From NCBI GenBank assembly GCA_002478885.1, contig DLKC01000076.1, positions 1-64,000 of the forward strand: a stretch of DNA of 64,000 nucleotides, in the 5' to 3' direction. The notes beneath the pieces were generated by a model. It was given only the letters and a program-made list of their open reading frames with translations. It did no database searches and was not told the origin of the DNA. Positions 3,361 to 61,740 of the stretch are shown here, piece after piece. The position numbers and the translations under genes were made by a program. The stretch comes from Chitinophagaceae bacterium UBA7600. GTDB taxonomy: Bacteria; Bacteroidota; Bacteroidia; Chitinophagales; Chitinophagaceae. The number at the start of each line of letters is the position of its first letter. Position 1 is the stretch's first letter.

Positions 3361-3415
3361 GTACCCGGCTTTGGGTCAAATGGCAGCTGCTGTTGCGTCG
3401 CACACTTGTACAATC
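3361..3415 (+). repeat. GCGTCGCAC-core repeat
   Basis: Box ACCCGGCTTT at 3363-3372 and core TTGCGTCGCACACTTGTAC at 3393-3411. The surrounding 408-bp gap (3123-3530) holds no gene; it also contains a 7-bp hairpin, TCCCGGA/TCCGGGA at 3267-3282. Confidence 0.85.
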
Positions 3416-3530
3416 AGTAGGCTGTTCAGCAAACACAAATGATGCCTCTTCACGAAGAATGAACTACCGAAAAACAGCGGTAAGCCGCAGGCTATATGCC
3501 TGGCACTTAAATATATAATTACTTATACAA

Positions 3531-6371
3531 TTACTCCAGCCCCCAGGTCCTGCCCTTCATTACTGCCGGCACACCCTCCGTGATCCATGTGGGAGGTGCT
3601 GCATCTTTCAGCAGCCAGTCGAAGAATTGCTGTTCGCGGATCTGTATATCTTTCCTGTTCCTTCGCTCTACAAGATTGTGCGCCTCGTTATTGTAGTCGA
3701 GCAGCCACACCGGTTTGTTCAGCCTGCGCATGGCGGTAAATAATTCAATGCCCTGGTACCATGGCACTGCACCATCGGCGTCATTCGACATGATGACCAG
3801 CGGGGTGGTCACTTTGGGTAAATGAAACAAGGGCGAATTGGCGATATACAAATCGGGCCGCTGCCAGATGGTTGCGCCGATCCGGCTTTGTTCTTTTTCA
3901 TACTGCATCTGCCGGTTGAGCCCACTTTCCCAGCGAATGCCGCCATAAGCACTGAACATATTGGCAACAGGAGCGCCCGCCCATGCGGCCTTATAAAGCT
4001 TTGTTTGTGTAATAATAAAAGCGGTTTGGTAGCCGCCCCAGCTCTGTCCCTGCAGGCCAATACGCGTGCTGTCTGCAATGCCTTTGCTGATGAGGGCGCG
4101 GGTGCCACTCACGATATAATCATACGCGCTCTGCCCGGGCTTACCGGTCGTGTACCAGATATCAGGTACAAATACGACATAGCCGCGGCTCACAAAAAAC
4201 GGTATGTTTAACCGCGATGGCGTTGGTGCCGGTGGCAGGTAATTGTGTAGTGTTTCATTGTTGCGTTCATAAAAATAAACGATCATCGGGTATCGTTTGT
4301 TTGCATCATAATCCTCTGGTTTATATAAAATGCCTTCGGTTAATTTACCGGTATAGGCTTTCCATTTAAAGAGCGCTGCCGTGCCCCACGCATAATCTTT
4401 TTGCTGCGGGTTGATCGAAGAAAGACGTTGATCAACCTGGTCTTTCGTAAGCCCTTTACCGGTATGGATATACATATCCGGCGAAGCGCTGAAGGTTTCT
4501 TTTGAATAAGCATACACATCAGCTTTCCTGGCTTTCAGGTATACGTTAACGTTCGCAGGAAGTATGTCAGCTTTTGCTGCGGTGGCATTTGCAGAGGAGA
4601 TAACAAAACTGCTGCCTTTGCTTGTTTCATCAAATACACGGAAAGCAATGGGCTGGCCCGGCTTTATAAAATGCTCATCCTCGTCAAGCGAAATATAGCG
4701 GTATTCCTGCTTTGCTGTACGGCCATCGGTTAACTTCACGGAAGCTGTTTTGCCTTCGGCATCAACTTTCCAAACATCATAGCGGTCGTAAATAAGCACT
4801 GCCGCATCAGCTTCGATCCATTTTGCTATACCGTACGCGGAAGGGTCACCAGGCACATCGTTTTCTTCGTCGAACAAAGGATATGGAATGTCAGCTCCAA
4901 CACGGTAAAGTTTTTGATTTATGCTGTTGTAAATACTATAGCTGCGTTTGGTATTGTCGTACAGCAATAAATACTTCCCGCTGTATGACTCGTACAGGTT
5001 GCCTCTGAAATTCTTTACAACAAGGCTCCGGTTGCCATTACGGGTATCTACTGCATAAACATCGCTGAATGTATAGCCCTGCCACTGTCTTGCTACGCGC
5101 CGGCCGGTATCTGTAGTTGCGTAAAAAACATCACCATCACCTTCCGCGGTTTCTAAAACAGTGCGAAAATCCTTGTCACCCGGTTGCAGCAAGGTTTTGC
5201 TTCCGATGTCGTAAATGGCTGTGTAGTTGCGCTTCGCATCCTTGTCAAGGTTTTTCAATTGAACGGTCATAAGGTCCTCATCTTTATAATTCCACACGTC
5301 AACGGACGAGCGTTCAAACTCCGGCACCGTTGTATCTTTTGGCGGAAGTATCGCCGACACGCCAAACAATAATCTTTTTGCCGATTTACTAAAATGTATT
5401 GCCGGGTTTTCCCCCACTGCATAACCTTGTTTCACGCCTTTGCTGCTGCGGTCAGCAATTGCTGCAGCGCTGTCAAATCCCGGGCGGTAATAATATAGTT
5501 TATAGAATTTCTGCAAAGCTTTGGTGCTGCTGTCACGCTCTGCAATAAAGGCAAGCTGGTTACCGCTGCTGTCCCATGCATAGGCCTTTGCATCATTGTA
5601 TTGATACAGGATCGTATCCTTCTTTGCCGTGCCCGCATGCCATACGATCACGGAAGGTTTTACAGAATCTTTTTTATTGCCGGCGCTCTCCATTAAAACG
5701 TTATTGCCGTTCCTGTCGGCCAGGTATTCCGATATGTCAGGAAAGGAATCTGTTGTTGCCGTTTGCAAATGATACAGCACAAGCATGCTTCCTTCAGCGG
5801 GTTTGTCGTCGTCGCTGCCTGCGCCATCTGCGTCTGTAAAAAATACATCATCATCTTTTTTCTTCGTTGAATCTGTACTCTTTTTTGAACTGCTGTCTTT
5901 GGCTGCAGCTTTTTCGTATTGCCAGGCGAGTAGGCCCGTTGTCTTATCAGGGAGCTGGTACGATTTTACCCTTGCCCATTTTCGGATGCTCCCATTGCTG
6001 ATGTCAATCAGGCAAAGACTGTCCTTTGGCAGCTCGTCTGCTTTTTTCTTTGCAATCTTCGCAGCTCGCGTTTCGTTGTAGGTAGGTTTTATTTTGCAAA
6101 CCACATAACGGTCGTCTGAAGAGATGCGTGCCTCATAGCCGCGTGGGATATCGGCGATATGTTCACCGTTTGTTTTTTGAATGACCAGCATGGCATCGCC
6201 TTGTTGCACATTAATACTATACAGCACAAAAGCGCCATTGCTGCTGATGCGTTTTTCACCGATACTTTGCCACGCATCATACACCGTATGATCGAGTGGT
6301 TTGTGTTGCGCTATAACAGGAAGATATGCGCTAAAAATCAGCGCGGCTGAAAGCAGGTATTTGGTTTGCAT
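3531..6371 (-). CDS. Secreted S9 family (prolyl oligopeptidase-like) peptidase
   Basis: 946 residues. A signal peptide (MQTKYLLSAALIFSAYLPVIAQ) leads into a long N-terminal beta-propeller-like part (~30-690) with a low-complexity Lys/Asp/Ser patch at ~155-195, then an alpha/beta hydrolase domain. The catalytic triad is visible: nucleophile S777 in GQSWGGY, D866 in NDADGAVPW, H898 in NNEAHNL. This is the order and spacing of S9 dipeptidyl-peptidase-like enzymes, which cut short peptides, often after Pro or Ala. In Bacteroidota such enzymes are usually periplasmic or exported and feed on proteins. It is a lone minus-strand gene with a repeat element on each side. Confidence 0.9.
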   Translation of the reverse strand: MQTKYLLSAALIFSAYLPVIAQHKPLDHTVYDAWQSIGEKRISSNGAFVLYSINVQQGDAMLVIQKTNGEHIADIPRGYEARISSDDRYVVCKIKPTYNETRAAKIAKKKADELPKDSLCLIDISNGSIRKWARVKSYQLPDKTTGLLAWQYEKAAAKDSSSKKSTDSTKKKDDDVFFTDADGAGSDDDKPAEGSMLVLYHLQTATTDSFPDISEYLADRNGNNVLMESAGNKKDSVKPSVIVWHAGTAKKDTILYQYNDAKAYAWDSSGNQLAFIAERDSSTKALQKFYKLYYYRPGFDSAAAIADRSSKGVKQGYAVGENPAIHFSKSAKRLLFGVSAILPPKDTTVPEFERSSVDVWNYKDEDLMTVQLKNLDKDAKRNYTAIYDIGSKTLLQPGDKDFRTVLETAEGDGDVFYATTDTGRRVARQWQGYTFSDVYAVDTRNGNRSLVVKNFRGNLYESYSGKYLLLYDNTKRSYSIYNSINQKLYRVGADIPYPLFDEENDVPGDPSAYGIAKWIEADAAVLIYDRYDVWKVDAEGKTASVKLTDGRTAKQEYRYISLDEDEHFIKPGQPIAFRVFDETSKGSSFVISSANATAAKADILPANVNVYLKARKADVYAYSKETFSASPDMYIHTGKGLTKDQVDQRLSSINPQQKDYAWGTAALFKWKAYTGKLTEGILYKPEDYDANKRYPMIVYFYERNNETLHNYLPPAPTPSRLNIPFFVSRGYVVFVPDIWYTTGKPGQSAYDYIVSGTRALISKGIADSTRIGLQGQSWGGYQTAFIITQTKLYKAAWAGAPVANMFSAYGGIRWESGLNRQMQYEKEQSRIGATIWQRPDLYIANSPLFHLPKVTTPLVIMSNDADGAVPWYQGIELFTAMRRLNKPVWLLDYNNEAHNLVERRNRKDIQIREQQFFDWLLKDAAPPTWITEGVPAVMKGRTWGLE

Positions 6372-6427
6372 GCTTTAAAAATATTTACTGTAAGGCAAAT
6401 CGTAAAATGTTTTTGAGCGATCGTTTT

Positions 6428-6626
6428 AGGGGCCGGGCTTTGCTGCACGCATGAAGCTTTTCTTGCGTCGCACACTTGTGCAGTTGGCCCGGAACGCAGC
6501 AAAGACGGAAAGACCGGAAACAATTCCCGCAACGATCAATTGCTGTTGCGCTCTCAGCCCCGGTTGATTTGCTGCAGTACAAGTGTGCGACGCAACCGCC
6601 GATGCCCAAAGAACCGCAGACCGGTA
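6428..6626. repeat. Paired (palindromic) GCGTCGCAC-core element
   Basis: Two core copies face each other: TTGCGTCGCACACTTGTGC at 6463-6481 (plus) and its counterpart GTACAAGTGTGCGACGCAA at 6577-6595 (minus), about 95 bp apart. The outer ends carry GGCCGGGCTTT (6431-6441) and, inverted, AGACCGGTAC (about 6617-6626). It fills the gap between the divergent S9 peptidase and sigma factor genes, so it lies close to both promoters. Confidence 0.85.
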
Positions 6627-6715
6627 CAAAAATATTTTTTCCAAACCTTGTGATTATTCAGACCTTGATGCGAATAATTAATCAGTAAATGATTTGCGAA
6701 CAATAAAAGCTGCGC

Positions 6716-7228
6716 ATGCAACCCACCGGTAAACAGGACCAATTTCTTTCCGTCATACAAAGCAACAGGGGCATTATTTATAAGGTGGCCAACGCTTACT
6801 GCAACAACGCGGAAGACAGGAAAGACATGGTGCAGGAGATCGTGCTGCAACTGTGGCGGGCCTTTGATCGCTATAACGCTGAATATAAATACAGCACCTG
6901 GGTCTATCGCATCGCGCTGAATGTTGCCATATCATTTTACCGCAAAGAAAGCAGCAGGAAGAAAATATCACATGATCTCACCGACGCTGTTTTCGATCTT
7001 GCTGAGGCAGAAGACCCGGCTGCGAAAGAAGCCAATATGCAACTGCTGCAGCAGTTTATTGGCGGACTGAAAGAACTCGACAAAGCCCTTATGCTGCTCT
7101 ATCTCGAGGAGCGCAGCTACAAGGAGATCGCCGGGATCATCGGGATCACCGAAACCAATGTAGCCACAAAACTCAGCAGGATAAAAACCGATCTGAAACA
7201 AAAATTTTCAACGATTCAAAACAATTAA
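6716..7228 (+). CDS. ECF-type RNA polymerase sigma factor
   Basis: 170 residues, the usual size of ECF sigma factors. Region 2 spans ~10-75 (NAEDRKDMVQEIVLQLWRAF, then STWVYRIALNVAISFYR, which binds the -10 element and core polymerase). Region 4 spans ~110-165 and has an HTH (YLEERSYKEIAGIIGITETNVATKLSRIK). It would direct RNA polymerase to a small set of promoters. The next gene starts right after its stop codon and encodes a membrane protein, so the pair is probably co-transcribed and the membrane protein may control or sense for this sigma factor. No typical anti-sigma zinc motif is present in that partner. Confidence 0.9.
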   Translation: MQPTGKQDQFLSVIQSNRGIIYKVANAYCNNAEDRKDMVQEIVLQLWRAFDRYNAEYKYSTWVYRIALNVAISFYRKESSRKKISHDLTDAVFDLAEAEDPAAKEANMQLLQQFIGGLKELDKALMLLYLEERSYKEIAGIIGITETNVATKLSRIKTDLKQKFSTIQNN

Positions 7229-7229
7229 A

Positions 7230-7880: not shown

Positions 7881-7902
7881 CAAATAAAGCCTTGTATTTT
7901 TT

Positions 7903-7956
7903 ACAGCGTTCGCAGGGAGGGAGCAACACAAAATCTCAATTCCATGCGAACGCTGT
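7903..7956. terminator. Perfect 12-bp inverted repeat after the membrane-protein gene
   Basis: ACAGCGTTCGCA (7903-7914) pairs exactly with TGCGAACGCTGT (7945-7956) around a 30-nt loop. It sits 22 bp after the stop of the plus-strand operon and 55 bp from the stop of the convergent amylase gene. Poly-T lies on the minus-strand exit side (TTTTTT complement at 7897-7902 reads as AAAAAA), and TTTCTTATG follows on the plus side, so it could serve as a two-way terminator. The long loop is unusual for that role. Confidence 0.5.
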
Positions 7957-8011
7957 TTCTTATGTGTTTGCAGCGTAAAACATAAAAGCCCGGAAGAAAT
8001 TTAGTGCGTAA

Positions 8012-9435: not shown

Positions 9436-9622
9436 AATTTTTATGGGCCGGGCTTTTGATGCAGTAATGATGCTTTTGTTGCGTCGCACTCTTGTGCGGC
9501 AGAATATAAGTTGGCAAGAGCGAACGGCTGCAAGCAATCTCTGCTGACTGCCGGTTTTATTGCACAAGTGTGCGACGCAAGAGCCGGTGCCATGAAAAAC
9601 AAAAGCCGGTAACATAAAATGC
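9436..9622. repeat. Paired (palindromic) GCGTCGCAC-core element
   Basis: Core TTGCGTCGCACTCTTGTGC at 9479-9497 and inverted core GCACAAGTGTGCGACGCAA at 9562-9580. The outer ends mirror each other: TTTTATGGGCCGGGCTTTT at about 9439-9457 and AAAAGCCGGTAACATAAAA at about 9601-9619. It is one of the clearest examples of the full element, ~187 bp, placed between two minus-strand genes. Confidence 0.9.
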
Positions 9623-9652
9623 ATACCGGCTCCTGGATAGTTATTGAATCTA

Positions 9653-13185: not shown

Positions 13186-13276
13186 TCTTTTTTAACCCGG
13201 CTTTTGCACAGGCATATTGCTGCCGTTGCGTCGCACACTTGTGCAGCAGAACAGGCATGGGCTAAAAACCGGCAAT
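13186..13276 (+). repeat. GCGTCGCAC-core repeat, short form
   Basis: A single core TTGCGTCGCACACTTGTGC (13226-13244) flanked by AACCCGGCTTTT (13194-13205) and, inverted, TAAAAACCGG (13263-13272). The short form shows that one core can be enclosed by the CCGGCTTTT ends. It lies between two minus-strand genes. Confidence 0.85.
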
Positions 13277-18396: not shown

Positions 18397-18511
18397 GTTG
18401 TTCTTTTTTAGCGCTGTAAAATTAGAGAGGAAATACAAACTCAAGGTTAATTAATGTTAATATAAGACGAATGTCTCTCCGTTTCGTTACAACTTCTTAC
18501 AGAAATTTTTT

Positions 18512-18590
18512 TGAACCCCGCTGCCGCCGGGCATTGTGCTCTAATTGCGTCGCACGCTTCAACTGTCACCGCGCAGCCAGGCTTTTCAAG
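18512..18590 (+). repeat. GCGTCGCAC-core repeat (CTTCAAC variant)
   Basis: Core TTGCGTCGCACGCTTCAAC at 18545-18563, preceded by GCCGCCGGGCATTGTG, a variant of the usual CCGGGCTTT box. It lies in the gap 18397-18714, which otherwise holds no gene. Confidence 0.75.
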
Positions 18591-19800: not shown

Positions 19801-19904
19801 CATCTTCCTCATTTTTATCGGAAAGCTGCTGCAGCCATATACGCAGTACTTTCCTAACGGCAGCTTAATCTTGCAGCGGCAAAATGATGACCATAGTTAC
19901 TTCG

Positions 19905-19957
19905 GCCGAAGAGTGCGACGCAACCGCCGATGCCATGCAATACATAGCCCGGCCCAT
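19905..19957 (-). repeat. GCGTCGCAC-core repeat
   Basis: Reverse-oriented core GAAGAGTGCGACGCAA at 19908-19923 followed by TGCCATGCAA and the box AGCCCGGCCCAT (19946-19957). It occupies the gap between the Fe-S membrane protein and the amidohydrolase, just upstream of the latter. Confidence 0.82.
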
Positions 19958-19993
19958 AATTTCTTTTCTTAAATTGCATGATAACCAACGCTC

Positions 19994-21994: not shown

Positions 21995-22004
21995 TCTTTT
22001 CTTT

Positions 22005-22070
22005 TGTTTCCGGCTTTGGCACTTATGGCATCGCCTGTTGCGTCGCACACTTGTGCGGCAATGTTCCAGG
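22005..22070 (+). repeat. GCGTCGCAC-core repeat
   Basis: TTTCCGGCTTTGGC at about 22007 and core TTGCGTCGCACACTTGTGC at 22038-22056. It is between the convergent amidohydrolase and lipase genes. Confidence 0.85.
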
Positions 22071-22137
22071 CATCAAAATGAAATTGAAACTCCGCGCTGG
22101 TGCAGTTCGGGTATGTCATACACAGCCTGTGTACTAA

Positions 22138-24189: not shown

Positions 24190-24257
24190 TCGATTGTTAG
24201 GTTCACCGTAAGATAAAAAACAATGAGAAGCATTTGATTATTCAGGTAAAAACTTTT

Positions 24258-24320
24258 TTTAGCCCGGCTGTATCAGCGCTGTTATGCTTTGCTTGCGTCG
24301 CACTCTTGTACGGCGTAACA
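24258..24320 (+). repeat. GCGTCGCAC-core repeat
   Basis: Box AGCCCGGCTG at 24261, ATGCTTTG, then core TTGCGTCGCACTCTTGTAC at 24293-24311. It flanks the 3' side of the VOC gene; an inverted copy flanks the other side at 24806-24868. Confidence 0.87.
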
Positions 24321-24386
24321 CTCCGCAGCAACGCAGCACAGCCAATTTGTATAAAAAACCTGTTGACTTATCTGAAGCGCCGGTTT

Positions 24387-24755: not shown

Positions 24756-24805
24756 CTGTACTTTATTTTGAGTTTATGAAATGTAAATTGATTTTGTCTA
24801 AACTA

Positions 24806-24868
24806 TTCCCGGCGCTGAAGTGTGCGACGCAACAAAAGCTTAATCGGTTTACTTCAGCCGGGCTCCAA
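24806..24868 (-). repeat. GCGTCGCAC-core repeat (CTTCAGC variant, reverse)
   Basis: Reverse core GCTGAAGTGTGCGACGCAA at 24814-24832, then ACAAAAGCTTAATCGG and the box AGCCGGGCTCC at 24857-24866. Together with the copy at 24258-24320 it encloses the VOC gene as an inverted pair. Confidence 0.85.
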
Positions 24869-24883
24869 AAAATGTATCCGCAC

Positions 24884-27187: not shown

Positions 27188-27236
27188 TGCACTAAGTTAA
27201 ATATTGAATGCCATCTAATTTGCAGGAAGAAATTAT

Positions 27237-27305
27237 TAGGGGCCTGGCTACATAGCTGCCATTAGGCTTTGCTTGCGTCGCACCCTTCAACGGAGGTGCC
27301 GCTGT
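27237..27305 (+). repeat. GCGTCGCAC-core repeat (CTTCAAC variant)
   Basis: Box GGGGCCTGGCTAC at about 27239, GGCTTTG, core TTGCGTCGCACCCTTCAAC at 27273-27291. With the reverse copy at 28098-28157 it encloses two small genes. Confidence 0.83.
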
Positions 27306-27345
27306 GAAGCAGAGTGAGGTTGTTTTTGCTCAACCTTGTTATTGG

Positions 27346-28065: not shown

Positions 28066-28097
28066 GGCAGTGATTATTTATTGCTCAGAATTGTTTA

Positions 28098-28157
28098 AAC
28101 GCTGAAGAGTGCGACGCAACCGGCGTTGCCACGGTTACTGCAGCCCGGATCAAAAAA
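28098..28157 (-). repeat. GCGTCGCAC-core repeat, reverse
   Basis: Reverse core GCTGAAGAGTGCGACGCAA at 28101-28119, then GGCGTTGCC and the box CAGCCCGGATC at 28141-28151. Confidence 0.85.
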
Positions 28158-29445: not shown

Positions 29446-29457
29446 GTGATTTTAAAT

Positions 29458-29522
29458 TTTTAGCCGGGCAGTTGAACAGTAATAATGCTTTGCTTGCGTC
29501 GCACAGTTGTACTGTTGTGCTT
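29458..29522 (+). repeat. GCGTCGCAC-core repeat
   Basis: TAGCCGGGCAG at 29461, AATGCTTTG, then core TTGCGTCGCACAGTTGTAC at 29494-29512. It fills the gap between the CoxE-like gene and fdhD. Confidence 0.86.
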
Positions 29523-29527
29523 CGTGG

Positions 29528-30652
29528 CTACAACCAATTGCCGAGCCGCTTCAGGCTTTCAGCGTTATGAACTGCAGCAAAAATATCGGTAAAAGGTAAT
29601 GCTGCACGCATGCCCGCCACTTGTGGCTTGTAATCTTCATAACCAGCCAGCGGATTAAGCCAGATCAGTTTTCTGCATATTTTATGAATGCGCTCCATGC
29701 TCTCTTTCAGCAGTTCAGTATCGCCGGCATCCCACCCGTCGCTCATCATAATAACGATTGTTTTTTTGTCAATTACCCTGGGCGCAAACTCCTGTACAAA
29801 CTCGTGAAGGCTTTTGCCAATTCTTGTGCCTCCGTTCCAACCTTCGTTTTTATTACTTAATATTTTCAAGGCGTCGTGAAAATCATTTTGCCTCAACAAC
29901 GCAGTAATATGATGCAGTGATGTGCTGAACGCAAATGTTTCAACGCGTCGGTATACATGTTGAAACGCATACATAAACTGCAACAGAAAGCCGGCATACA
30001 ATTCCATCGACCGGCTGACATCACATATCAAAACAAGTTTTGTGCGGTTACGTTTTGGGTTGCGGTAGGCTAGTTCAAGTAATTCGCCGCCGCGGCGCAT
30101 GTTACGCCTGAGTGTTCTGCGCAGGTCAGGCAGATTTATTTTATTGCTTTTTTCATAACGCCTGCCTGCTTTGGCCGCAAGTTTTTTTGATAAAGCTTTG
30201 ATCAGCCTGAGCAGCTCGTCTATTTCATCATCAGGTATGTTTGCAAAGTTTTTTTTCGATAAACTTTCATTGCTGCTGTACGAGGCCACTTTCTCCTCTT
30301 CGTCGTTTTTGTTGCCGTTGAGCCATGCTTTAAGAGATTTAAAAGAAGCATCTTTATCTTTTGGTTTCAGCACTTGTTCCCGGACAGTTTTTACTTTGGA
30401 ATCAACTGCCTCACCGATTTGTTTCCAATACGAATTAAAAAGCTGCTCAAATTCCTGTAGCTGGCTTTTGGTTTTGCATAACACCGATTTTAAAGCAAGC
30501 CTGAAAATGTCTCTGTTGCTGTAGTCGATAAAGGTCAAGGCCTCCAGTGCTGTTGCCTCATCCTGGACACCCAATACAAATCCTTTTTGCCGCAGGTAAC
30601 GGCAAAACTGAACAATGTTCTTTGATAGAGATGTCTGGCGTGTAATAAGCAT
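29528..30652 (-). CDS. CoxE-like von Willebrand A domain protein
   Basis: 374 residues. The N-terminal half is the CoxE-type helical region (FCRYLRQKGFVLGVQDEATALEAL, ~17-40) with a Lys/Glu-rich linker at ~90-130. The C-terminal VWA domain has the MIDAS motif LICDVSRSMELY (D-x-S-x-S), a TAGT-like loop in GGTRIGKSLHEF, and VIMMSDGWDAGD. In Oligotropha CoxE works with the AAA+ protein CoxD in maturing the active site of CO dehydrogenase. Here it sits downstream of a CoxD-like ATPase and the CoxMLSG genes, so it probably helps mature that molybdenum hydroxylase. Confidence 0.87.
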   Translation of the reverse strand: MLITRQTSLSKNIVQFCRYLRQKGFVLGVQDEATALEALTFIDYSNRDIFRLALKSVLCKTKSQLQEFEQLFNSYWKQIGEAVDSKVKTVREQVLKPKDKDASFKSLKAWLNGNKNDEEEKVASYSSNESLSKKNFANIPDDEIDELLRLIKALSKKLAAKAGRRYEKSNKINLPDLRRTLRRNMRRGGELLELAYRNPKRNRTKLVLICDVSRSMELYAGFLLQFMYAFQHVYRRVETFAFSTSLHHITALLRQNDFHDALKILSNKNEGWNGGTRIGKSLHEFVQEFAPRVIDKKTIVIMMSDGWDAGDTELLKESMERIHKICRKLIWLNPLAGYEDYKPQVAGMRAALPFTDIFAAVHNAESLKRLGNWL

Positions 30653-31594: not shown

Positions 31595-31629
31595 TCGGTC
31601 GTTATTTTTCCAGGCAATAAATATAATTT

Positions 31630-31690
31630 TTTTGTCCCGGCTTTAAAGCATTACATCAGCTTTCGTTGCGTCGCACTCTTGTACTTTTTG
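31630..31690 (+). repeat. GCGTCGCAC-core repeat
   Basis: TCCCGGCTTTAAAGC at 31635, core TTGCGTCGCACTCTTGTAC at 31666-31684. With the reverse copy at 32645-32705 it encloses coxM. Confidence 0.86.
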
Positions 31691-31779
31691 AACAATGGGC
31701 GGCACGGAAACCATGCGAACAAAAACAAAACAAGGCGGTATCAATACCACCTTGTTTTGGATGTTTTGCAGCAAGTGCT

Positions 31780-32589: not shown

Positions 32590-32644
32590 AATAACTGAAT
32601 AATTAAAAATGAATAATTACAATTTTAAAAGCTGAATAATGAAC

Positions 32645-32705
32645 TGCGAGTACAAGAGTGCGACGCAACGATGTTTAATGCCTGCACTGTTGCCCGGCCC
32701 ATTAT
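32645..32705 (-). repeat. GCGTCGCAC-core repeat, reverse
   Basis: Reverse core GTACAAGAGTGCGACGCAA at 32650-32668, then TTTAATGCC and the box GCCCGGCCCATTATG at 32692. It sits inside the hydroxylase operon, between the large and FAD subunit genes. Confidence 0.86.
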
Positions 32706-32730
32706 GATTCAACTTTATTTTAAAGAACTG

Positions 32731-35585: not shown

Positions 35586-35643
35586 GGATTTTTTATTTTA
35601 AAAATTTGTGTGAGATTAAACAACGGGTATAAAAATTTTCGAA

Positions 35644-35695
35644 TACCGGCTTTTTGTTTTCATGGCATCGCCTGTTGCGTCGCAATCACTTCATC
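35644..35695 (+). repeat. GCGTCGCAC-core repeat, degenerate
   Basis: TACCGGCTTTTTG at 35644, CATGGCATCGCC, then TTGCGTCGCAATCACTTCA from 35674, a core with a small insertion. It lies between coxG and coxS. Confidence 0.72.
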
Positions 35696-35705
35696 GTCCT
35701 GTTTT

Positions 35706-36146
35706 TTATGGCAACAATTCCTTTTCCATATTGCTGAAAAATTGTTTGCTGAGTGTGTTGGCCACACCGCCAATCAAACGCTGGCCCATGGTCGCCAGCA
35801 TTCCCGATAATTTTACATCCCCGTTAAAAGCTATCGCCGTTTTGGTCTCTTCCAAAGGAGTAAGACTTATTTCTATTGCCGCACTGGCATTGCCTACTTT
35901 GCTGTTTTGCTGAATTTTTAAGGTAAACCCTTTTTCCTCCATCACATTTTCCATCTGAAGATTTCCGTTAAAAGCCGCACTTACAGGACCGAGTTTAACA
36001 CCAAGAGTAGATTTAAATGTTGTATCGTCAATCTTTTCCAGTTTCGTTACTCCTGGTACAATGCGTGCAAGCGTATCTGTGTCCATTAACAATGCCCACA
36101 CCTTCGCCGGTGAAGCTTCAACAACATGATTCCCTGTTAGCTGCAT
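35706..36146 (-). CDS. CoxG-like SRPBCC domain protein
   Basis: 146 residues of the CO dehydrogenase subunit G/SRPBCC family: VVEASPAKVWALLMDTDTLARIVPGVTKLEKID opens the START-like cavity fold and GMLATMGQRLIGGVANTLSKQFFSNMEKEL closes it with the C-terminal helix. CoxG has been proposed to anchor the enzyme to the membrane or to help its recruitment. It is the first gene of the minus-strand hydroxylase group. The C-terminal membrane-binding extension of longer CoxG proteins is missing. Confidence 0.9.
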   Translation of the reverse strand: MQLTGNHVVEASPAKVWALLMDTDTLARIVPGVTKLEKIDDTTFKSTLGVKLGPVSAAFNGNLQMENVMEEKGFTLKIQQNSKVGNASAAIEISLTPLEETKTAIAFNGDVKLSGMLATMGQRLIGGVANTLSKQFFSNMEKELLP

Positions 36147-38007: not shown

Positions 38008-38065
38008 TTTTTATGGGTCCGGCTTTTACACATGCATGTGACTTTCATTGCGTCGCTCCATTTAA
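38006..38065 (+). repeat. GCGTCGCAC-core repeat, degenerate core
   Basis: It starts at the moaA stop codon: TTTTTATGGGTCCGGCTTTTAC (box at 38015-38025), then TTGCGTCGCTCCATTTAAC at 38048-38066. The gap to moeA holds no gene. Confidence 0.72.
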
Positions 38066-38181
38066 CCACATCGCTCCGTGCAGCTAAAGACGGCTTATGC
38101 AGCAGCCGTCGGTCAATAAATGCAGCGCAGTTCAAATCAATTATTTCGGCATAAATTCACCCTTTACTATTCATCATTCCA

Positions 38182-39384: not shown

Positions 39385-39420
39385 GGAATAACAGTGACTT
39401 TTTGAACCAAACACTTGAAC

Positions 39421-39568
39421 AGGTATTAAACATTCTTGCGTCGCACGCTTGTACTTCAGTGCTAAGCTCAGCAAGATTAACACTGAAAGCATCTTAGCAT
39501 GTTCGTAGTCATTTCAATATTCCGGTTTTGACGAGGTTTAGGAAGACCTTGAAGTGAGTGACACAACA
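39421..39568. repeat. Paired GCGTCGCAC-core repeat, right arm decayed
   Basis: Core TTGCGTCGCACGCTTGTAC at 39436-39454. About 95 bp on, CTTGAAGTGAGTGACACAACAAAGC (39549 on) is a decayed inverted core. It lies in the 222-bp gap between moeA and moaC, which has no gene. Confidence 0.7.
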
Positions 39569-39606
39569 AAGCTTAATAGTAGTAACACAGCCAAGTACAA
39601 AAACAC

Positions 39607-42989: not shown

Positions 42990-43060
42990 TTTTTGTACCG
43001 GGCTGCGGCAACAGAATGCTTCTTTTGTTGCGTCGCACACTTGTGCTGCATAACAGCATG
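42990..43060 (+). repeat. GCGTCGCAC-core repeat
   Basis: TACCGGGCTGCGGC at 42996, GAATGCTTCTTTTG, then core TTGCGTCGCACACTTGTGC at 43028-43046. It sits just upstream of the moaDE start and pairs with the reverse copy at 43749-43805 across the MocA-like gene. Confidence 0.86.
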
Positions 43061-43156
43061 CAGCAAACCTGCAACAGCCTAAACAAAACTAAATAAACAT
43101 CACAAAGTGAAGCAGGTTAAATTTTCCCTTCGTTTATTTGGCATAATTTCATCAAT

Positions 43157-43747
43157 ATGATAACGGCCATTGTTCTTGCTGCAGGTCTTTCAAAGCGCAT
43201 GGGTAAGGCGAACAAAATGCTGTTGCCCTACAAAGGCAAACCGGTTATTGCAGTCACGGTTGACAATATTGTTGCGGCAGGCGTCAGCGATATAGTTGTT
43301 GTAACCGGTTTTGAACAAGAGAAGATACAGGAAGTGCTTAATACACGTCCTGTGCGAATTATGAGCAACCCCGACTATGAAAAGGGTATGACAACGTCCA
43401 TACAAAAGGGCATCGCACATGCTAAAGGCAATGGCTACATGATTTGTCTTGGAGACATGATCCATATCATGCCGGGGGAATACACATTGCTTACACACCG
43501 GTTTAACCAGGCTTACACCGCAAATAGTGCTTGTATTGTTGTGCCGTTTTACAAGGCCGGAAAGGGTAACCCGGTAATTTTTTCCCGGCATTATCATAAT
43601 GATATTATGAGCAACACTGATATGGAAGGTTGTAAAAACATCGTACAGGCCAACAAGCAAAACATCGTTGCAGTGGAAATGGAAAACGCCCATATTCTTA
43701 GCGACCTTGATTACCCCGAAGACTATGCTAAGCTCAATAATGAATAA
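43157..43747 (+). CDS. MocA-like nucleotidyltransferase (molybdenum cofactor cytidylyltransferase type)
   Basis: 196 residues. Nucleotidyltransferase with the LAAGLSKRMGKANKMLLPYKGKPVI signature (~7-31), DIVVVTGFEQEKIQ, and GYMICLGDMIHIMPGEY. The MocA group makes the cytosine dinucleotide form of Moco used by xanthine-dehydrogenase-type hydroxylases. With a CoxSLM-type enzyme in the neighbourhood, that is the likely role. A MobA-like NTP transferase of another kind cannot be ruled out from the sequence. It is bracketed by repeat copies. Confidence 0.82.
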   Translation: MITAIVLAAGLSKRMGKANKMLLPYKGKPVIAVTVDNIVAAGVSDIVVVTGFEQEKIQEVLNTRPVRIMSNPDYEKGMTTSIQKGIAHAKGNGYMICLGDMIHIMPGEYTLLTHRFNQAYTANSACIVVPFYKAGKGNPVIFSRHYHNDIMSNTDMEGCKNIVQANKQNIVAVEMENAHILSDLDYPEDYAKLNNE

Positions 43748-43748
43748 G

Positions 43749-43805
43749 GCGTTGAAGCGTGCGACGCAACAATTGTTGCCCTGTTGGTAAAAGCCGGGAT
43801 CAAAA
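43749..43805 (-). repeat. GCGTCGCAC-core repeat, reverse
   Basis: Reverse core GTTGAAGCGTGCGACGCAA at 43751-43769, CAATTGTTGCC, and box AAGCCGGGATC at 43790-43800. It starts right after the MocA-like stop codon. Confidence 0.87.
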
Positions 43806-43840
43806 AAATATGTATCGCTGTACTGGGGTAACAATAAATC

Positions 43841-46039: not shown

Positions 46040-46271
46040 TTTGGTAGCCGGCTGTTTGCGATGCGGTCATCGCCTGTAGCGATTGTGCAGGCTTGTCCGG
46101 CATCAACCACTTCGGCGGTTGGGCCATAAGTCAGCAGGGAGGGAATACCGGGAGTATTTGCAATATTGTAAAACACTTTCGGTTGAAGTACTGCGATGTT
46201 CCTGGTTTGTTCTGCAGTACAAGAGTGCGACGCAAGTGCAGCTGCCCAAAGCATCAAAGCCGGCTACCAAA
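46040..46271. repeat. Paired repeat element with perfect 14-bp terminal inverted repeats
   Basis: TTTGGTAGCCGGCT (46040-46053) and AGCCGGCTACCAAA (46258-46271) are exact inverted ends. Inside, the right core GTACAAGAGTGCGACGCAA (46217-46235) is intact and the left one is decayed (GCGATTGTGCAGGC near 46078). Length 232 bp. The sharp ends suggest the boundaries of a mobile unit. It lies between the kinase and the VioB-like gene. Confidence 0.82.
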
Positions 46272-46324
46272 ACGTTAAAAACGCAAAGCATTTTATTCAT
46301 CATTCATAAACAACCTCACATTTT

Positions 46325-49940: not shown

Positions 49941-50131
49941 TTTTTTATGAACCAGGCATAAGTTTTTCATAGCATCGACAGTTGCGTCGCACTCTTGTAC
50001 CAAAGAAATGCCCTGAGCTTTTAAATAAAATAAAGTTGGTGCAGGGTTTACGGTTCACGCATTGACGCCCTGGGTTTTGCAGTACAGGAGTGCGACGCAA
50101 CGATGCCTGGTAAAGAGATAAAGCCGGGAAC
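49941..50131. repeat. Paired (palindromic) GCGTCGCAC-core element
   Basis: Core TTGCGTCGCACTCTTGTAC at 49982-50000 and inverted core GTACAGGAGTGCGACGCAA at 50082-50100. It starts 1 bp after the kelch-like gene's stop codon (TTTTTTATGAACCAGG) and ends with AAGCCGGGAA at about 50121. It separates convergent genes. Confidence 0.86.
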
Positions 50132-50174
50132 GCATATCCTTAAAAAACGAAACATGAGAGGTTGCCTGCAATCG

Positions 50175-52140: not shown

Positions 52141-52340
52141 TTTTATGTGCCCGGCACCTGTAAAACAATGAAGCTTTCGTTGCGTCGCACTCTTGTACCG
52201 CAGAACATAGGTCTTAAAGACCAGGGTACAGGAGTTCAATCGTTTCGATATTGCCCTAAGCCTCTTCCGGGCTCCGTTGTTTGCAGAATGCCAGGCCGGG
52301 AATTGAAATGTGTGATGCCGGATTAGCCGGGCACTATCGC
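52141..52340. repeat. GCGTCGCAC-core element with 9-bp terminal inverted repeats
   Basis: GTGCCCGGC (52147-52155) and GCCGGGCAC (52326-52334) are exact inverted ends. The left core is TTGCGTCGCACTCTTGTAC at 52180-52198. The right half is replaced by the REP-like hairpin TGCCGGATTAGCCGGGCA (near 52317). It lies between the two DUF3857 genes. Confidence 0.8.
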
Positions 52341-55381: not shown

Positions 55382-55450
55382 GAGCCGGGCTGCAGTAAAA
55401 CAACTAAGCCATTATTGCGCGACGTGCCGGCTTATCTGGCATCGCGCTGT
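55382..55450. repeat. Variant repeat with REP-like hairpin
   Basis: GAGCCGGGCTGCAG at 55381, then GTGCCGGCTTATCTGGCATCGCGCTGTTGTAC (55423-55453), which is the inverted form of the hairpin near 56320. It overlaps the end of the low-confidence small gene. Confidence 0.7.
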
Positions 55451-56300: not shown

Positions 56301-56345
56301 TGTATGCTGCAGTACAAGCATGCGATGCCGGATAGGCCGGCACTT
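56301..56345. repeat. Variant repeat with REP-like hairpin
   Basis: CTGCAGTACAAGCATGCGATGCC, then TGCCGGATAGGCCGGCA (56326-56342, stem TGCCGG/CCGGCA). The same hairpin type recurs near 52317 and, inverted, 55423. It lies between the SLATT and patatin genes. Confidence 0.72.
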
Positions 56346-56458
56346 TGCGCAAGAAAAGCCGCATTGAAATAAATAGCCCGGTCAACAATTGCTTTCTTAT
56401 GGCAGTAACGCGCAGTGCCAGTCACGCATAAATTCATTCACCATCTAAAAATATCATT

Positions 56459-57631: not shown

Positions 57632-57727
57632 CCGGAAACAGTTGAATACGGCAATAAATATCGACGACGGTCGTAGTTGATCGGCTGCCTGGTATTTGCT
57701 GTGCACTACGGTCGCCGGTTGGACATG

Positions 57728-57790
57728 AGATGGTGGGCCCTGCTCCTGAGCAATGGGCATCGTCCCTTGCGTCGCACACTTCAACTTTTG
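57728..57790 (+). repeat. GCGTCGCAC-core repeat (CTTCAAC variant)
   Basis: GGGCATCGTCCC and core TTGCGTCGCACACTTCAAC at 57767-57785. It lies in the gap upstream of the TPR gene. Confidence 0.8.
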
Positions 57791-57854
57791 TAACTTTATG
57801 CAACTTGTTTGTGAGCAGAAAATACATTTACACAAAGATTTAAACGAATAACCT

Positions 57855-59210
57855 ATGGCAGATAAATCCTGTTTCGTGGTAATGGGCTTTGGAATAAAAA
57901 CCGATCTTGCTACAGGCCGTAAACTCAATCTTGATAAGTCTTACGAAGCGTTGATAAAACCTGTTATAGAAGCCAAAGGCATACGCTGCCTTCGGGCAGA
58001 TGAGATACGGCATTCGGGTTCCATTAACCTGCAGATGTTCCAGCAGTTGCTGTCTGCCGACATAGTAGTGGCCGACATCTCCACCGCCAATGTGAATGCG
58101 TTTTATGAACTTGGCCTTCGTCATGCGCTGAAGCCGAAAACTACCATCATTATATCAGAATCTCAATATGGGTATCCCTTCGACCTCAATGGCATAAACA
58201 TAAGCAGCTACACCCATCTCGGCGAGAATATTGACTATTTTGAAGTAATGCGTTTTCAAAAACTGCTCGGCGAAATGCTCGACAGTATTTTAAAAGATGC
58301 CACACCGGATAGCCCCGTGTATACACTGATAACAGATCTTATTCCACCAATGCTTAACGACCAGGCCGCTAATCTTGTCGACAGGATCGGCGATGTGCTC
58401 ACGGCAAGAACGCAGGCAATGGAAGCAGAACAGGATCCGGACATACAAACCCTTTCACTAAAGATCAAGCAGGCCGAAGCATTTTTAAAGGCTAAAAATT
58501 TTCCCGAAGCAAAAGCCGCATTTGCCAATGCACTTCGCATGCTTTCTGAAGAAGACAATCCAAAGCTGCTTGCCAACAATGCTTATCTCGTTCAGCGGTT
58601 GGCATTGTCCACATACCAGGCCAAGCAACCAGATGAAATATCAGCGTTAAAAAAAGCGCTGGTATTGTTAAAACAGATCGATCTCGACCATACCAACGAT
58701 ACAGAAACTGTTGCGCTGGCCGGTGCTATTGAAAAACATTTGTACGAGCTCGGCGACGGTATTGATCACCTCGAAAATGCGGTGCTTAGTTTTCAACGTA
58801 GTTACTACCTGTTGCATAACCGTTATCACGCCATCAATCTTGCCTATCTTTTTCACCTGCGCGCTTCAACGGAATTGGATACGACCGAAGAAGAAAGAAT
58901 TGCCGACAGGGTTTGGGCAAACCGTATGCGCCGCGATGTGTTGGAACTTTGCACTGCCGATGAAGCAAAATTGGCAGAAATGGAAAAGCAGCTTACAACC
59001 TCAACAGGCCTGGCCAGCGACGATCAGCATAAAATGATCGCAGAACAAAGATTCTGGATTAATGTAAACAGGGCCGAAGCATGTTTCGGGCTTGGAGATA
59101 CGCCCGGCTTCCAGGCTGCCATTGCAAATGCCATTCTTATTCCCCATGAAGACTGGATGATGAAAAGTTTTACCGACCAGCTTGAACAGCTAAGGAAACT
59201 GGTGCAGTAA
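57855..59210 (+). CDS. Nucleoside deoxyribosyltransferase/TIR-like domain with TPR region
   Basis: 451 residues. The N-terminal ~140 residues start CFVVMGFGIKTD and contain VVADISTANVNAFYELGLRHALKPKTTIII, a signature of the deoxyribosyltransferase/TIR-like fold found in conflict and NAD/nucleotide-processing proteins. The remaining ~310 residues are helical and TPR-like (FLKAKNFPEAKAAFANALRML, ALVLLKQIDLDHTNDTETVALAGAIEKHLYEL). The family is usually annotated as TRAFs-binding/TPR domain protein, a sensor-type module. It may sense or make a nucleotide signal for the patatin or SLATT effector. The link is inferred. Confidence 0.75.
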   Translation: MADKSCFVVMGFGIKTDLATGRKLNLDKSYEALIKPVIEAKGIRCLRADEIRHSGSINLQMFQQLLSADIVVADISTANVNAFYELGLRHALKPKTTIIISESQYGYPFDLNGINISSYTHLGENIDYFEVMRFQKLLGEMLDSILKDATPDSPVYTLITDLIPPMLNDQAANLVDRIGDVLTARTQAMEAEQDPDIQTLSLKIKQAEAFLKAKNFPEAKAAFANALRMLSEEDNPKLLANNAYLVQRLALSTYQAKQPDEISALKKALVLLKQIDLDHTNDTETVALAGAIEKHLYELGDGIDHLENAVLSFQRSYYLLHNRYHAINLAYLFHLRASTELDTTEEERIADRVWANRMRRDVLELCTADEAKLAEMEKQLTTSTGLASDDQHKMIAEQRFWINVNRAEACFGLGDTPGFQAAIANAILIPHEDWMMKSFTDQLEQLRKLVQ

Positions 59211-59277
59211 CTGCGGGCATCGGTAATAAAGAATAACACCGGTGTAGAGTTAATCCTGTGCATGTTCCGCAGTGTTA

Positions 59278-59338
59278 TTCAGCTGAAGTGTGCGACGCAA
59301 GTAAAGCCGCCATAGAAAGCGAATGCCAGGCTCCAAAA
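59278..59338 (-). repeat. GCGTCGCAC-core repeat, reverse
   Basis: Reverse core GCTGAAGTGTGCGACGCAA at 59282-59300, then AGCGAATGCC and the box AGGCTCCAAAAAA at 59328. It separates the TPR gene from the convergent MATE gene. Confidence 0.83.
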
Positions 59339-59340
59339 AA

Positions 59341-60699
59341 TTAAATCACCTTATTTTTCCATCTTCCGCTTCGCATGTATAAGTAGGCGCAGGTGAAAAT
59401 GAACAGCCAGTAGATCCACTCGGCCATCCATCCAATCGCGAGTGACAGGTTCAGGTATTCCAGCACATAATAGGCGTACAACGAGTATAGGATGATAGCC
59501 ACGATTTCTATTGCGAGGTTAATTTTTGAATTGCCGGTACCAAGTACGGCATTCAGGTACACCGTTGAAAAAGACATGATGATGAGTGCCGTGGAAACCA
59601 CGCGCACCACCGGGATAGCTTCGTTAATAAATGTTTCGCCCTGGCCATACACCTGCAAAAAATAGCCAGCCGTAGTGTTGAGCAGTATAAAAATAAGGAT
59701 GCTGAAACCCGTGCTGAGTTTGATAATTTTCATCATAAGTTCCGGCACCTTGCTTTGTAAGCCCTGCCCGATAATATTACTCACCATCGAAGTGGTAGTT
59801 GATGCGAATGCCCAGGTGATGCAGCCAAACAAACCAAAAATATTTCTCATGGTGTTAGAGATGGCTAGTTCTCTTGCACCATGGTGCTCGACAAGTATGT
59901 AAAAAAACTCCCACGATGCAAGGCTGATTACATATTGAAGTATGACGGGGGATGATTGTTCGAAAATCAATTTTACTTTGGCAGCATCATAGGCATATTT
60001 TTTAAATAGCTGTAATTGTTTGCCAACTCCTTTTCGCTGCATTACAAAGAACACCACCACAAGCCCGGTTATTTCTGAAAGTATGGATGCATATGCTGCG
60101 CCGTCGAAACCGAGAGCCGGCAAGCCGAAATGCCCGAAGATTAAACCATAGTCAAGCACAATGTTGGCAATGGTTTCAGCAAGTGTACCCGACACAAGCA
60201 GTTTGCTTTGATTGGTGCCCACAAGCAACGCGTTGCGCATCTGGTAAATGTACAGGAAGGGGAGGCCCCATATCCTGATGCGAAGAAACTGAATCGCGAT
60301 TGCAACATCTGTTGGATTGTGCAACGATACGCTGAGCAGGGGCGGTGCAAGTAAGTAAGTTACCACGATGCTGAAAGCGGCAAAGAACAAAGAAATGCGA
60401 ACGCCCTGGTTAAAAATATTTCCGATCTCTCCTGCACGGTTTTCGCCGGCCCGTCGCGAAATAAGTGCCTGCAATCCGTTATTAAGACCAAAGCCAATGG
60501 TTGCAAACACGAGGTAATAAACACCTGTTATGCCCGCAATAGCGAGTTGCTGTTCACCAATACGGCCAAGGAAAATATTGTTGGTGATAAAGTTTAACTG
60601 GGGTATTAAAATAGCAAAAGCAACCGGCAACGCAATCCGGAGAATATGTTTATTGCTGATACCAACCTTAAGCTCAATATTTGATGCATCCTGCGCCAT
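59341..60699 (-). CDS. MATE family efflux transporter
   Basis: 452 residues from the ATG at 60699, chosen because MAQDASNIELKVGISNKHILRIALPVAFAILIPQLN is the usual short cytosolic start; the longer frame is rejected. Twelve membrane spans in two homologous halves are seen, with the DinF/NorM-type segments NNIFLGRIGEQQLAIAGITGVYYLVFATIGFGLNNGLQALISRRAGE and GLPALGFDGAAYASILSEITGL. It should export drugs or metabolites by cation antiport. No regulator is adjacent. Confidence 0.92.
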   Translation of the reverse strand: MAQDASNIELKVGISNKHILRIALPVAFAILIPQLNFITNNIFLGRIGEQQLAIAGITGVYYLVFATIGFGLNNGLQALISRRAGENRAGEIGNIFNQGVRISLFFAAFSIVVTYLLAPPLLSVSLHNPTDVAIAIQFLRIRIWGLPFLYIYQMRNALLVGTNQSKLLVSGTLAETIANIVLDYGLIFGHFGLPALGFDGAAYASILSEITGLVVVFFVMQRKGVGKQLQLFKKYAYDAAKVKLIFEQSSPVILQYVISLASWEFFYILVEHHGARELAISNTMRNIFGLFGCITWAFASTTTSMVSNIIGQGLQSKVPELMMKIIKLSTGFSILIFILLNTTAGYFLQVYGQGETFINEAIPVVRVVSTALIIMSFSTVYLNAVLGTGNSKINLAIEIVAIILYSLYAYYVLEYLNLSLAIGWMAEWIYWLFIFTCAYLYMRSGRWKNKVI

Positions 60700-61244
60700 A
60701 GAGGGTTGCAAATGTACAATGCTGCAGGCCGATAGGCAAAACTGGTATGGGTGAACATACATTCAGTGGCCGCTGAAAATTGTTTGAAGGTTAAAAAAGC
60801 AACACGTTCATCTCTGGTGCATCGTTTTTCTTGATACATTATTTTTAATGCGGTTTGTTTTCCACTATGCAATTAAAGGATATGCCGGTGCCAATCGGTG
60901 GCGTAACACACCCATCATTCCTTCGATAGTTGTTCGATCTTCAACATCGAACAACTGCTGTTCAAATGCCGGTTAATTATTATAGTACGATCTATACCAA
61001 TGATGCCTCAGGCTTTCGTAGTGCAGCTGGGTTGGTTGTGTTATTCACCTTATATGCAAAACCATTATTGAGCATGGTTGTTATGGAGCAGGAATACTAT
61101 ATATCATCAATTCAACTTTTGTGCATGAATGCCGTATCGCCCTTCCTGAAAGACTTTGAAGGAACAGAAAAAAATCAGGTAGCTTTAATAAAATATCAGG
61201 CATCCATTACTGCATCATGCAGTTGTTAAACAAAAAAAGAAAGT
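60700..61244. other. Gap between MATE and DoxX genes with a perfect inverted repeat
   Basis: No convincing gene. AGTTGTTCGAT (60928-60938) and ATCGAACAACT (60946-60956) are an exact 11-bp inverted repeat around a 7-nt loop. It has no T-run, which points to an operator or RNA hairpin more than to a terminator. The short open frame 60930-61229 is not supported. Confidence 0.55.
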
Positions 61245-61667
61245 ATGGCCCTACAGGTACAAACCACAGTCTTGCAAAATATATTCAGAATATTGTTAGG
61301 TGCATTTATGATATTGGCAGCCATCGGCCATTTAAGTTTTCAGCGCGCAGAATTCCAGGCACAGGTTCCGGATTGGATACCATTGAACAAAGACTTTGTG
61401 GTAATTGCATCCGGTATTGTAGAGATGGCATTGGGACTAAGCATCATCTTCTGGAAAAAGCAACGGGCTAGCACAGGCATCGCACTCGCCGTATTTTACG
61501 TATTGATCTTCCCCGGAAATATTGCACAGTATATCAACCACACGAATGCTTTTGGTCTCGATACAGATACAAAAAGGCTGGTGCGTTTATGCTTTCAGCC
61601 AGTATTAATAATATGGGCATTGTGGTGCACAGGTGCATTAACAAAGCTTACCCGCAAACATGCATAA
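61245..61667 (+). CDS. DoxX family membrane protein
   Basis: 140 residues with four membrane spans: VLQNIFRILLGAFMILAAIGHL (span 1), DFVVIASGIVEMALGLSIIFW (2), TGIALAVFYVLIFPGNIAQYI (3), and LCFQPVLIIWALWCTG (4). This is the DoxX-like (DoxX/SURF4) pattern. Members work in quinone oxidation or membrane stress; the role here is unknown. Confidence 0.85.
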   Translation: MALQVQTTVLQNIFRILLGAFMILAAIGHLSFQRAEFQAQVPDWIPLNKDFVVIASGIVEMALGLSIIFWKKQRASTGIALAVFYVLIFPGNIAQYINHTNAFGLDTDTKRLVRLCFQPVLIIWALWCTGALTKLTRKHA

Positions 61668-61683
61668 TAAAAAATATTGTGTA

Positions 61684-61740
61684 ACAGGCTGTAGCATTTC
61701 ATAGCATCTTCGTTGTGTCACTCACTTGTACGCCATAGCT
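61684..61740 (+). repeat. GCGTCGCAC-core repeat, degenerate
   Basis: TAACAGGCTGTAGCATTTCATAGCATC, then TTGTGTCACTCACTTGTAC at 61713-61731, a core with two changes. It is between the DoxX and amidohydrolase genes. Confidence 0.65.

Follow-up and report, generated by a model that had tools for sequence, protein, structure and literature searches.

The stretch analysed here, positions 1 to 64,000 of contig DLKC01000076.1 from Chitinophagaceae bacterium UBA7600 (all 64,000 nucleotides of it, hereafter the window), carries in the gaps between its genes many copies of a repeat of about 80 bases built around a 19-bp core. The original prediction had described close to 30 such copies, intergenic, on both strands and assignable to no named family, and this description stands. 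Its coordinates are correct, and a profile covering −36 to +40, built from copies of the window's genome (G000), finds 29 copies of at least 8 bits, 18 on the + strand and 11 on the − strand, all 29 of them outside called genes. A comparison of the window with Rfam at the gathering score returned no match. Exact occurrences of the commonest core, TTGCGTCGCAC, number 25 in the window, and core matches with at most two mismatches number 37, compared with 20.2 ± 3.6 in shuffled sequence (0 of 100 shuffles reach 37).

A family of intergenic copies

The family is real, genome-wide and far larger than the window suggests. The 5.47-Mb genome G000 holds 798 exact 19-base cores, 392 and 406 on its two strands, and none of the reversed pattern; a profile scan of 0.86 Mb gave 339 copies, or one per 2,536 bp, which extrapolates to about 2,150 in the whole genome. 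For a repeat in a bacterium, one copy per 2.5 kb is very dense. Two further genomes, G058 (from another genus) and G069, yielded 73 copies in 0.2 Mb and 247 in 0.6 Mb, and reversed-sequence controls of the 1.66 Mb scanned in the three genomes contained no match of 8 bits or more. The results below draw on this pooled set of 659 copies, whose events are not independent, and the analyses of copy likeness, unit distance, gaps, short genes, distance to the previous copy, simulation and regression all reuse its pair-distance data. Because profile copies were picked partly through the core, conservation of the core is overstated. Genes were called with a simple hexamer script rather than a standard annotator, and a stricter gene set was used for part of the results.

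Four inward-facing pairs stand in the window: 6425–6504 (+, core 6463, 55 bits) with 6554–6633 (−, core 6577–6595, 61 bits); 9441–9520 (+, core 9479, 42 bits) with 9539–9618 (−, core 9562–9580, 57 bits); 39398–39477 (+, core 39436, 43 bits) with 39525–39604 (−, core 39548, a TTGTGTCACTC variant, 39 bits); and, with convergent genes on either side, 49944–50023 (+, core 49982, 41 bits) with 50059–50138 (−, core 50082, 35 bits). Three copies have counterparts beside orthologous genes: those at 31628–31707 (+, core 31666, 66 bits) and 32627–32706 (−, core 32650, 46 bits) on the same side and in the same orientation in G058, and that at 38010–38089 (+, core 38048, 32 bits) in the same orientation 3′ of the gene in both G058 and G069. 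The remaining + copies lie at 3355–3434 (core 3393–3411, 63 bits), 13188–13267 (core 13226, 55 bits), 18507–18586 (core 18545, with a CTTCAAC ending, 38 bits), 22000–22079 (core 22038, 60 bits), 24255–24334 (core 24293, 51 bits), 27235–27314 (core 27273, 45 bits), 29456–29535 (core 29494, 41 bits), 35637–35716 (core 35675, a weak copy of 10 bits), 42990–43069 (core 43028, 59 bits), 52142–52221 (core 52180, 54 bits), 57729–57808 (core 57767, 55 bits) and 61675–61754 (core 61713, a TTGTGTCACTC variant, 42 bits). On the − strand, further copies lie at 19882–19961 (core 19905, 55 bits), 24791–24870 (core 24814, 52 bits), 28078–28157 (core 28101, 60 bits), 43728–43807 (core 43751, 56 bits), 46194–46273 (core 46217, 59 bits) and 59259–59338 (core 59282, 47 bits).

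The unit spans about −38 to +42 around the core. The conserved stretch, as judged from 83 copies whose core is exact, extends from about −38 to +38 and takes in a T-run (−38 to −33), a CCGGC-like box (−30 to −24), a variable module (−12 to −1), the core itself and a CAGCAA-like box (+33 to +38). Among the 659 copies the core reads TTGCGTCGCAC in 462, TTGTGTCACTC in 109 and TTGCCACGCTC in 33; its bases +3 and +7, which belong to an odd dyad G-Y-G-T-C-R-C, change together from C-G to T-A and are complementary in 98%. The predicted CCGG-type box, searched as a loose pattern, is present in 24 of the 29 window copies, whereas the ATGCTTT that was said to accompany it is no regular feature (4 of 29 in the window, 15 of 659 overall). 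Both predicted core endings likewise exist, CTTGT[AG]C in 414 and CTTCA[AG][CG] in 81 of the 659, but they are not subfamily markers, since the ending is only weakly associated with positions outside the core (z of 5 or less in the 339 G000 copies).

Folding of the 659 copies on both strands produced no consensus pairing clearly above that of column-shuffled controls (0.27 against 0.20 for the strongest, which lies at +7 to +18 of the antisense strand), and no conserved hairpin appeared between −45 and +65. For this reason we read the element as a signal in duplex DNA rather than a hairpin, and an RNA or single-stranded DNA structure was set aside. A small peptide, in which an ATG...LRRTLV frame would place the variable base at a wobble position, was also rejected, the distance and frame from ATG to core differing among copies by eye. 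The idea that the 239 lone copies have a degenerate second half next to them was likewise rejected: above 9 bits, reversed left boxes are equally common downstream (0.24) and upstream (0.25), with a small downstream excess above 11 bits (0.11 versus 0.05).

Two side observations come from the window. At 55437 (+) and 56312 (−), outside the 29 profile matches, looser related elements with cores TGGCATCGCGCTGTTGTAC and CGGCATCGCATGCTTGTAC face each other across one gene and may represent a sister family with a longer left arm. Between 83 and 1465, a unit of about 296 bp is repeated in four to five tandem copies, stretches of which are 66–97% alike.

A scan of Chitinophagaceae genomes, as the original prediction had proposed, places the family in other genera as well. 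The exact core occurs in 42 of 98 genomes of the window's family (one genome per genus), with at least 15 in 18 of them and a range of 0 to 1,337, and two more species of the genus of G069 contain 954 and 1,871. In a sample of the phylum, 6 of 296 genomes are positive, all from the window's family, and 2.9 million viral contigs supplied only 25 matching stretches, several of which share one contig. Three of 26 contigs fetched through one neighbouring gene bear the element (Chitinophagaceae bacterium UBA4407, another Chitinophagaceae metagenome-assembled genome (MAG) and, in a variant form, Segetibacter sp. 3557_3); the stretches around that gene in two Niastella species, two Sediminibacterium and one Puia MAG have none. 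The repeat is thus neither confined to the window, nor seated within coding sequence, nor a known Rfam family, and no title or opening of an abstract among published work on repeats, uptake sequences and repetitive extragenic palindromes (REPs) in Bacteroidetes or Chitinophagaceae describes it; the letters of the core turned up only in papers titled on other subjects. In 100-kb stretches, genome G065 gave a single profile match (11 bits) and G027, which has 41 exact cores genome-wide, gave none. Other intergenic words, unlike the element by eye, occur 12–24 times per 100 kb: TGTACTTCCAT / GTCCATTTTTT; GTGCATCCATTGGC; AGCTATCAGCT; and ATTTGAGATTT, their sources being, as listed, L262–L266 (G027), L227–L231 (G018), L237–L241 (G055) and L257–L261 (G065).

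Seat, spacing and direction

Copies are seated in gene gaps almost without exception (359 of the first 360, and 654 of 659 under stricter gene calls). Among 873 gaps of at least 80 bp, 318 hold a + copy, 327 a − copy and 126 both, against 119 expected, so + and − copies fill gaps independently; no gap holds two copies on the same strand, and none more than two in all. Where both strands are represented, the + copy is on the left and the − copy on the right in 118 gaps and the reverse in 8. The near gene faces the T-run end of the copy. When that gene presents its end, the core starts a median of 49.5 bp past the stop codon (54–60 bp under stricter genes), hence the T-run begins about 12–22 bp past it, and copies do often lie just past stop codons, as had been noted for some; when it presents its start, the core lies 115–131 bp away (median). 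Slots are filled in 355 of 828 sense and 290 of 918 antisense cases. None of 13 stretches shows a strand bias (lowest p 0.26), and the element is therefore independent of replication direction.

Along the chromosome, orientation alternates more than expected in all three genomes, with 103, 44 and 49 alternations against 80.6, 31.5 and 38.0 (the fractions of 2,000 permutations reaching the observed values were 0, 0 and 0.005). Pairs less than 1 kb apart are on the same strand in only 2 of 172 cases (0 of 113 below 200 bp, 1 of 18 at 200–500 bp and 1 of 41 at 500–1,000 bp) and pairs at 1–2 kb in 43 of 153 (17 of 69 at 1–1.5 kb and 26 of 84 at 1.5–2 kb); from 3 kb on, the same-strand share is about half. 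Spacing is unaffected by how alike two copies are: below 1 kb, same-strand and opposite-strand pairs number 0 and 68 for alike copies and 2 and 102 for unlike ones, and at 1–2 kb they number 21 and 49, and 22 and 61. Homologous recombination or slippage is therefore no explanation, and a homology-driven deletion of direct repeats is rejected. Once + − neighbours up to 2.5 kb apart are merged, unit distances below 1 kb make up 4.4% against 25.9% expected, and no gene shorter than 600 bp has copies of the same strand at both its ends, against an expectation of 9.4 sense and 6.2 antisense cases.

The law is also one-sided. Slot occupancy rises from 0.22 to 0.57 with the length class of the gene on the T-run side and moves only from 0.36 to 0.39 with that of the core-side gene. 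In a logistic regression that included gap length and boundary type (n = 1610), the coefficients were 0.41 ± 0.05 for T-run-side and 0.01 ± 0.05 for core-side gene length, and stricter genes (n = 1456) gave 0.32 ± 0.06 and 0.01 ± 0.05. Measured as distance behind the last same-strand copy, occupancy climbs from 0.01 at 0.5–1 kb to 0.60 at 4–6 kb. When every simulated slot was made to look back, on its T-run side, to the nearest preceding copy of its own strand, the asymmetry was reproduced; reversed and symmetric simulations did not reproduce it. Occupancy tracks the gene on the T-run side and is indifferent to the one on the core side, so that each copy seems to serve something that comes in from the T-run side, and the spacing law points to a process that runs one way along DNA with a range of 1–5 kb. 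We know of no other bacterial repeat that combines a same-strand exclusion zone with one-sided dependence on gene length, and the literature searches on repeats and uptake sequences yielded none.

Conservation and exchange among copies

Positions are partly conserved across genera. With four tables summed, orthologous genes have a copy on the same side and in the same orientation in 32 cases, against 19.6 expected from the marginals. At one orthologous locus, where the proteins are 75% identical, the two flanking cores survive (one with a single letter changed, the other unchanged) and the remaining gap has drifted; at another, UBA4407 retains an inverted pair of which one core is of a different type. 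A 44-kb GC-poor integrated island in G069 (C1 59175–103425, L156–L159), which splits a YifB/ComM-like gene and encodes a CcrB-like serine recombinase (below the model cut-off) and a second recombinase-like reading frame, holds no copy where about 18 would be expected at the density of that genome.

Pairs picked for like left arms (224 in G000 and 168 in G069) fall to background likeness, or near it, within or just past the core, and those picked for like right arms (7 and 64) lose most of their likeness to the left of it. Tandem gene duplications account for some of these pairs. As likeness breaks in or at the core, arms have been exchanged between copies around it. Separately, an inverted pair in G000 (L033, C2 49726–49776 and 51375–51425) is found doubled 1.65 kb away, 90% identical over 126 bp, probably through a recent local duplication.

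Possible roles and known systems

We propose that the element serves the host chromosome as a directional, strand-specific signal for DNA processing of a Chi- or uptake-like kind, kept and spread by recombination. A protein reader would most probably recognize duplex (or locally opened) DNA at the core dyad and its flanking boxes, and a copy would stop or reset a machine approaching from the T-run side. A second copy of the same orientation within 1–2 kb downstream would then be redundant and be lost, and one of opposite orientation, answering traffic from the other side, would be independent of it. The need for a copy would grow with the stretch of DNA passed since the previous signal, alike for sense and antisense and irrespective of replication direction. 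Some orthologous sites retain their copies, and spread and repair through recombination at the core would probably amount to a molecular drive. A Chi-like mark that halts or resets an end-processing helicase-nuclease would show this pattern, and so would a directional uptake signal. End-processing at breaks (Chi) is known for traffic with no fixed starting point that scales with length and is alike on both strands, and directional DNA uptake could fit this as well. Given the one-sided, length-dependent pattern, the uptake-like traits and a mismatch with uptake sequences in orientation, we favour a Chi- or uptake-like processing signal with modest confidence, at a probability of about 0.36.

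Several points weigh against this proposal. Neither a reader protein nor an experiment was found to support it. The exact core is absent from 56 of the 98 family genomes, and five zero-copy genomes (G018, G066, G055, G014 and G065; 100 kb each) contain no core-like intergenic word, so the function is dispensable. Turnover between genera is considerable, the element being present in one genome only in 38 of 134 side-and-orientation cells. The simulated slope (0.30–0.47) is weaker than that observed, and beyond 6 kb from the last same-strand copy occupancy drops to 0.46 and then 0.34, perhaps owing to copy-poor regions. Neither the close fit of the T-run behind stop codons nor the + left, − right order within gaps is accounted for by a Chi or uptake role. 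Chi is a few bases long and not intergenic, and the element has far more conserved letters. The same holds against uptake sequences, with cores of 9–12 bases (PMC1939737, PMC2397512).

A bolder version of the idea, which we put forward tentatively, is that a one-way punctuation signal, present about 2,000 times per chromosome and resetting a translocating DNA machine every few kilobases on each strand, would be a new genome feature. Such a machine might, for example, be an end-degrading nuclease that tells own from foreign DNA, host DNA being marked and newcomer DNA unmarked. Whether the machine is one of end repair, uptake, defence or transcription, the signal opens a direct way to study it in Chitinophagaceae.

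A non-autonomous mobile repeat of the REP/BIME (bacterial interspersed mosaic element) or MITE (miniature inverted-repeat transposable element) type, mostly inactive now and inserted in gaps, with the spacing produced by loss of copies, would account for the patchy copy number among the 98 genomes and the G069 congener, the intergenic seat, the inverted pairs and the near-identical left arms of some copies within one genome. Common descent would also predict that core type is tied to the left box, as it loosely is: in the 339 G000 copies, the CG or TA state of +3/+7 is associated with positions −29/−30 (z 19–22), +11 (z 18) and −1 (z 14). We nevertheless judge this origin unlikely. In place of a conserved hairpin, the best REP-type stem (GCAC/GTGC-type) is fully paired in 14% of the 659 copies, and copy flanks have a mean identity of only 37–40%. 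The suggested link to a REP-associated tyrosine transposase (RAYT) did not materialize: Y1 transposase counts are uncorrelated with copy number (Spearman 0.10, p 0.33, 98 genomes), and 5 of the 18 genomes with at least 15 copies have no Y1 hit; REP/BIME was rejected on this count and for want of the hairpin. A MITE with terminal inverted repeats was rejected on the evidence of 114 close inverted pairs, whose arms resemble each other no more than those of random copies do (left arms 0.425 against 0.449 identical, and 60% alike in 0.9% against 6.8%). As for an autonomous parent, among 98 genes between + and − copies 300–2,000 bp apart none was recognized as a transposase by eye from the first 70 residues, without a family search; many look like housekeeping genes and one resembles a XerD-type recombinase. 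Directional occupancy has no place in a mobile-repeat account.

Comparably unlikely is a role in natural transformation, as a DNA uptake sequence whose directional entry would carry in the DNA on the core side. In its favour, one-sided redundancy fits directional coverage, and copy number, spacing, lack of orientation bias and rarity in acquired DNA are similar to those reported for known uptake sequences (PMC1939737, PMC2397512). However, orientation has no effect on uptake in Haemophilus, according to PMC1939737, and in the present family a copy of one orientation does not stand in for one of the other; titles and abstract openings in the literature supply no competence data for these bacteria.

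A roadblock-type transcription terminator, in which a U-tract followed by a bound protein would halt spurious sense or antisense transcription leaving a gene, seems to us improbable. Its best argument is the tight seat after stop codons, with the T-run on the strand of arrival. The dependence on the T-run-side gene, the order of copies within gaps and the peak of G000 occupancy between convergent genes (in the first G000 set, 27 of 34 convergent gaps of at least 80 bp, 99 of 174 tandem and 25 of 51 divergent) all agree with it. Yet a strong terminator is unlikely, because sense copies sit within a cluster of trpF-like, trpB, trpA, hisH, hisA and hisF genes, apparently one operon (in the 87-bp hisA–hisF gap, in the trpB–trpA gap and 3′ of the trpF-like gene), and short tandem gaps show no shortage of them (68 gaps of 80–110 bp hold 11 sense and 5 antisense copies). 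Strong hairpin terminators, at the highest cut-off, are about equally common with and without a copy (22% versus 26% at convergent ends, 17% versus 17% in tandem gaps; 35% versus 46% at convergent ends with the lowest cut-off), and the absence of sense copies flanking short genes is a further point against it. An intrinsic terminator, a hairpin followed by a T-run, was rejected, as the unit has its T-run upstream and no hairpin is conserved. Rho was found in 92 of the 98 family genomes, including the copy-rich G058 and G069, which counts against the roadblock and leaves the element as a Rho replacement unsupported. The G000 assembly (98.7% complete) has no Rho match at E ≤ 1e-50, for which an assembly gap is a possible reason.

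Least probable of all is that direct repeats recombine and delete the gene between them, possibly through a site-specific recombinase, for despite the strong same-strand depletion below 2 kb and the exchange of arms at the core, that depletion is independent of copy likeness and no one-sided dependence on T-run-side gene length would be expected.

Set beside known systems, the element resembles REPs and BIMEs in being a high-copy intergenic repeat with pairs in opposite orientation, and CGTC, which tags one class of REPs, is part of its commonest core; it differs from these RAYT-associated units of 20–40 bp (PMC3733652) in its lack of a conserved palindromic hairpin and of any association with Y1 transposases. 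With the uptake sequences of Neisseria (DNA uptake sequence, DUS) and Haemophilus (uptake signal sequence, USS) it shares high copy number, regular spacing, both orientations without chromosomal bias, close inverted pairs and scarcity in acquired DNA. Reported for them are 1,471 and 1,965 copies per genome, a regular spacing that matches conversion fragments, no chromosomal orientation bias, some close inverted pairs, under-representation in recent acquisitions and, in Haemophilus, 65% of copies within reading frames (PMC1939737, PMC2397512). Unlike them, the element is about 80 bp long, has several boxes and lies almost wholly outside genes, and where their orientation reportedly plays no part it shows a one-sided repulsion between same-strand copies only, below 2 kb. 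Roadblock terminators of the Reb1/TTF-I kind have a T-rich stretch ahead of a protein-sized site and one working orientation, a layout that the T-run and conserved site recall, although here sense copies occur within an operon-like cluster. Chi, finally, is directional in its action on RecBCD/AddAB, is needed at intervals on each strand and carries a load proportional to length, and the element shares with it the direction of dependence, the strand-specific need at intervals and the length-proportional load.

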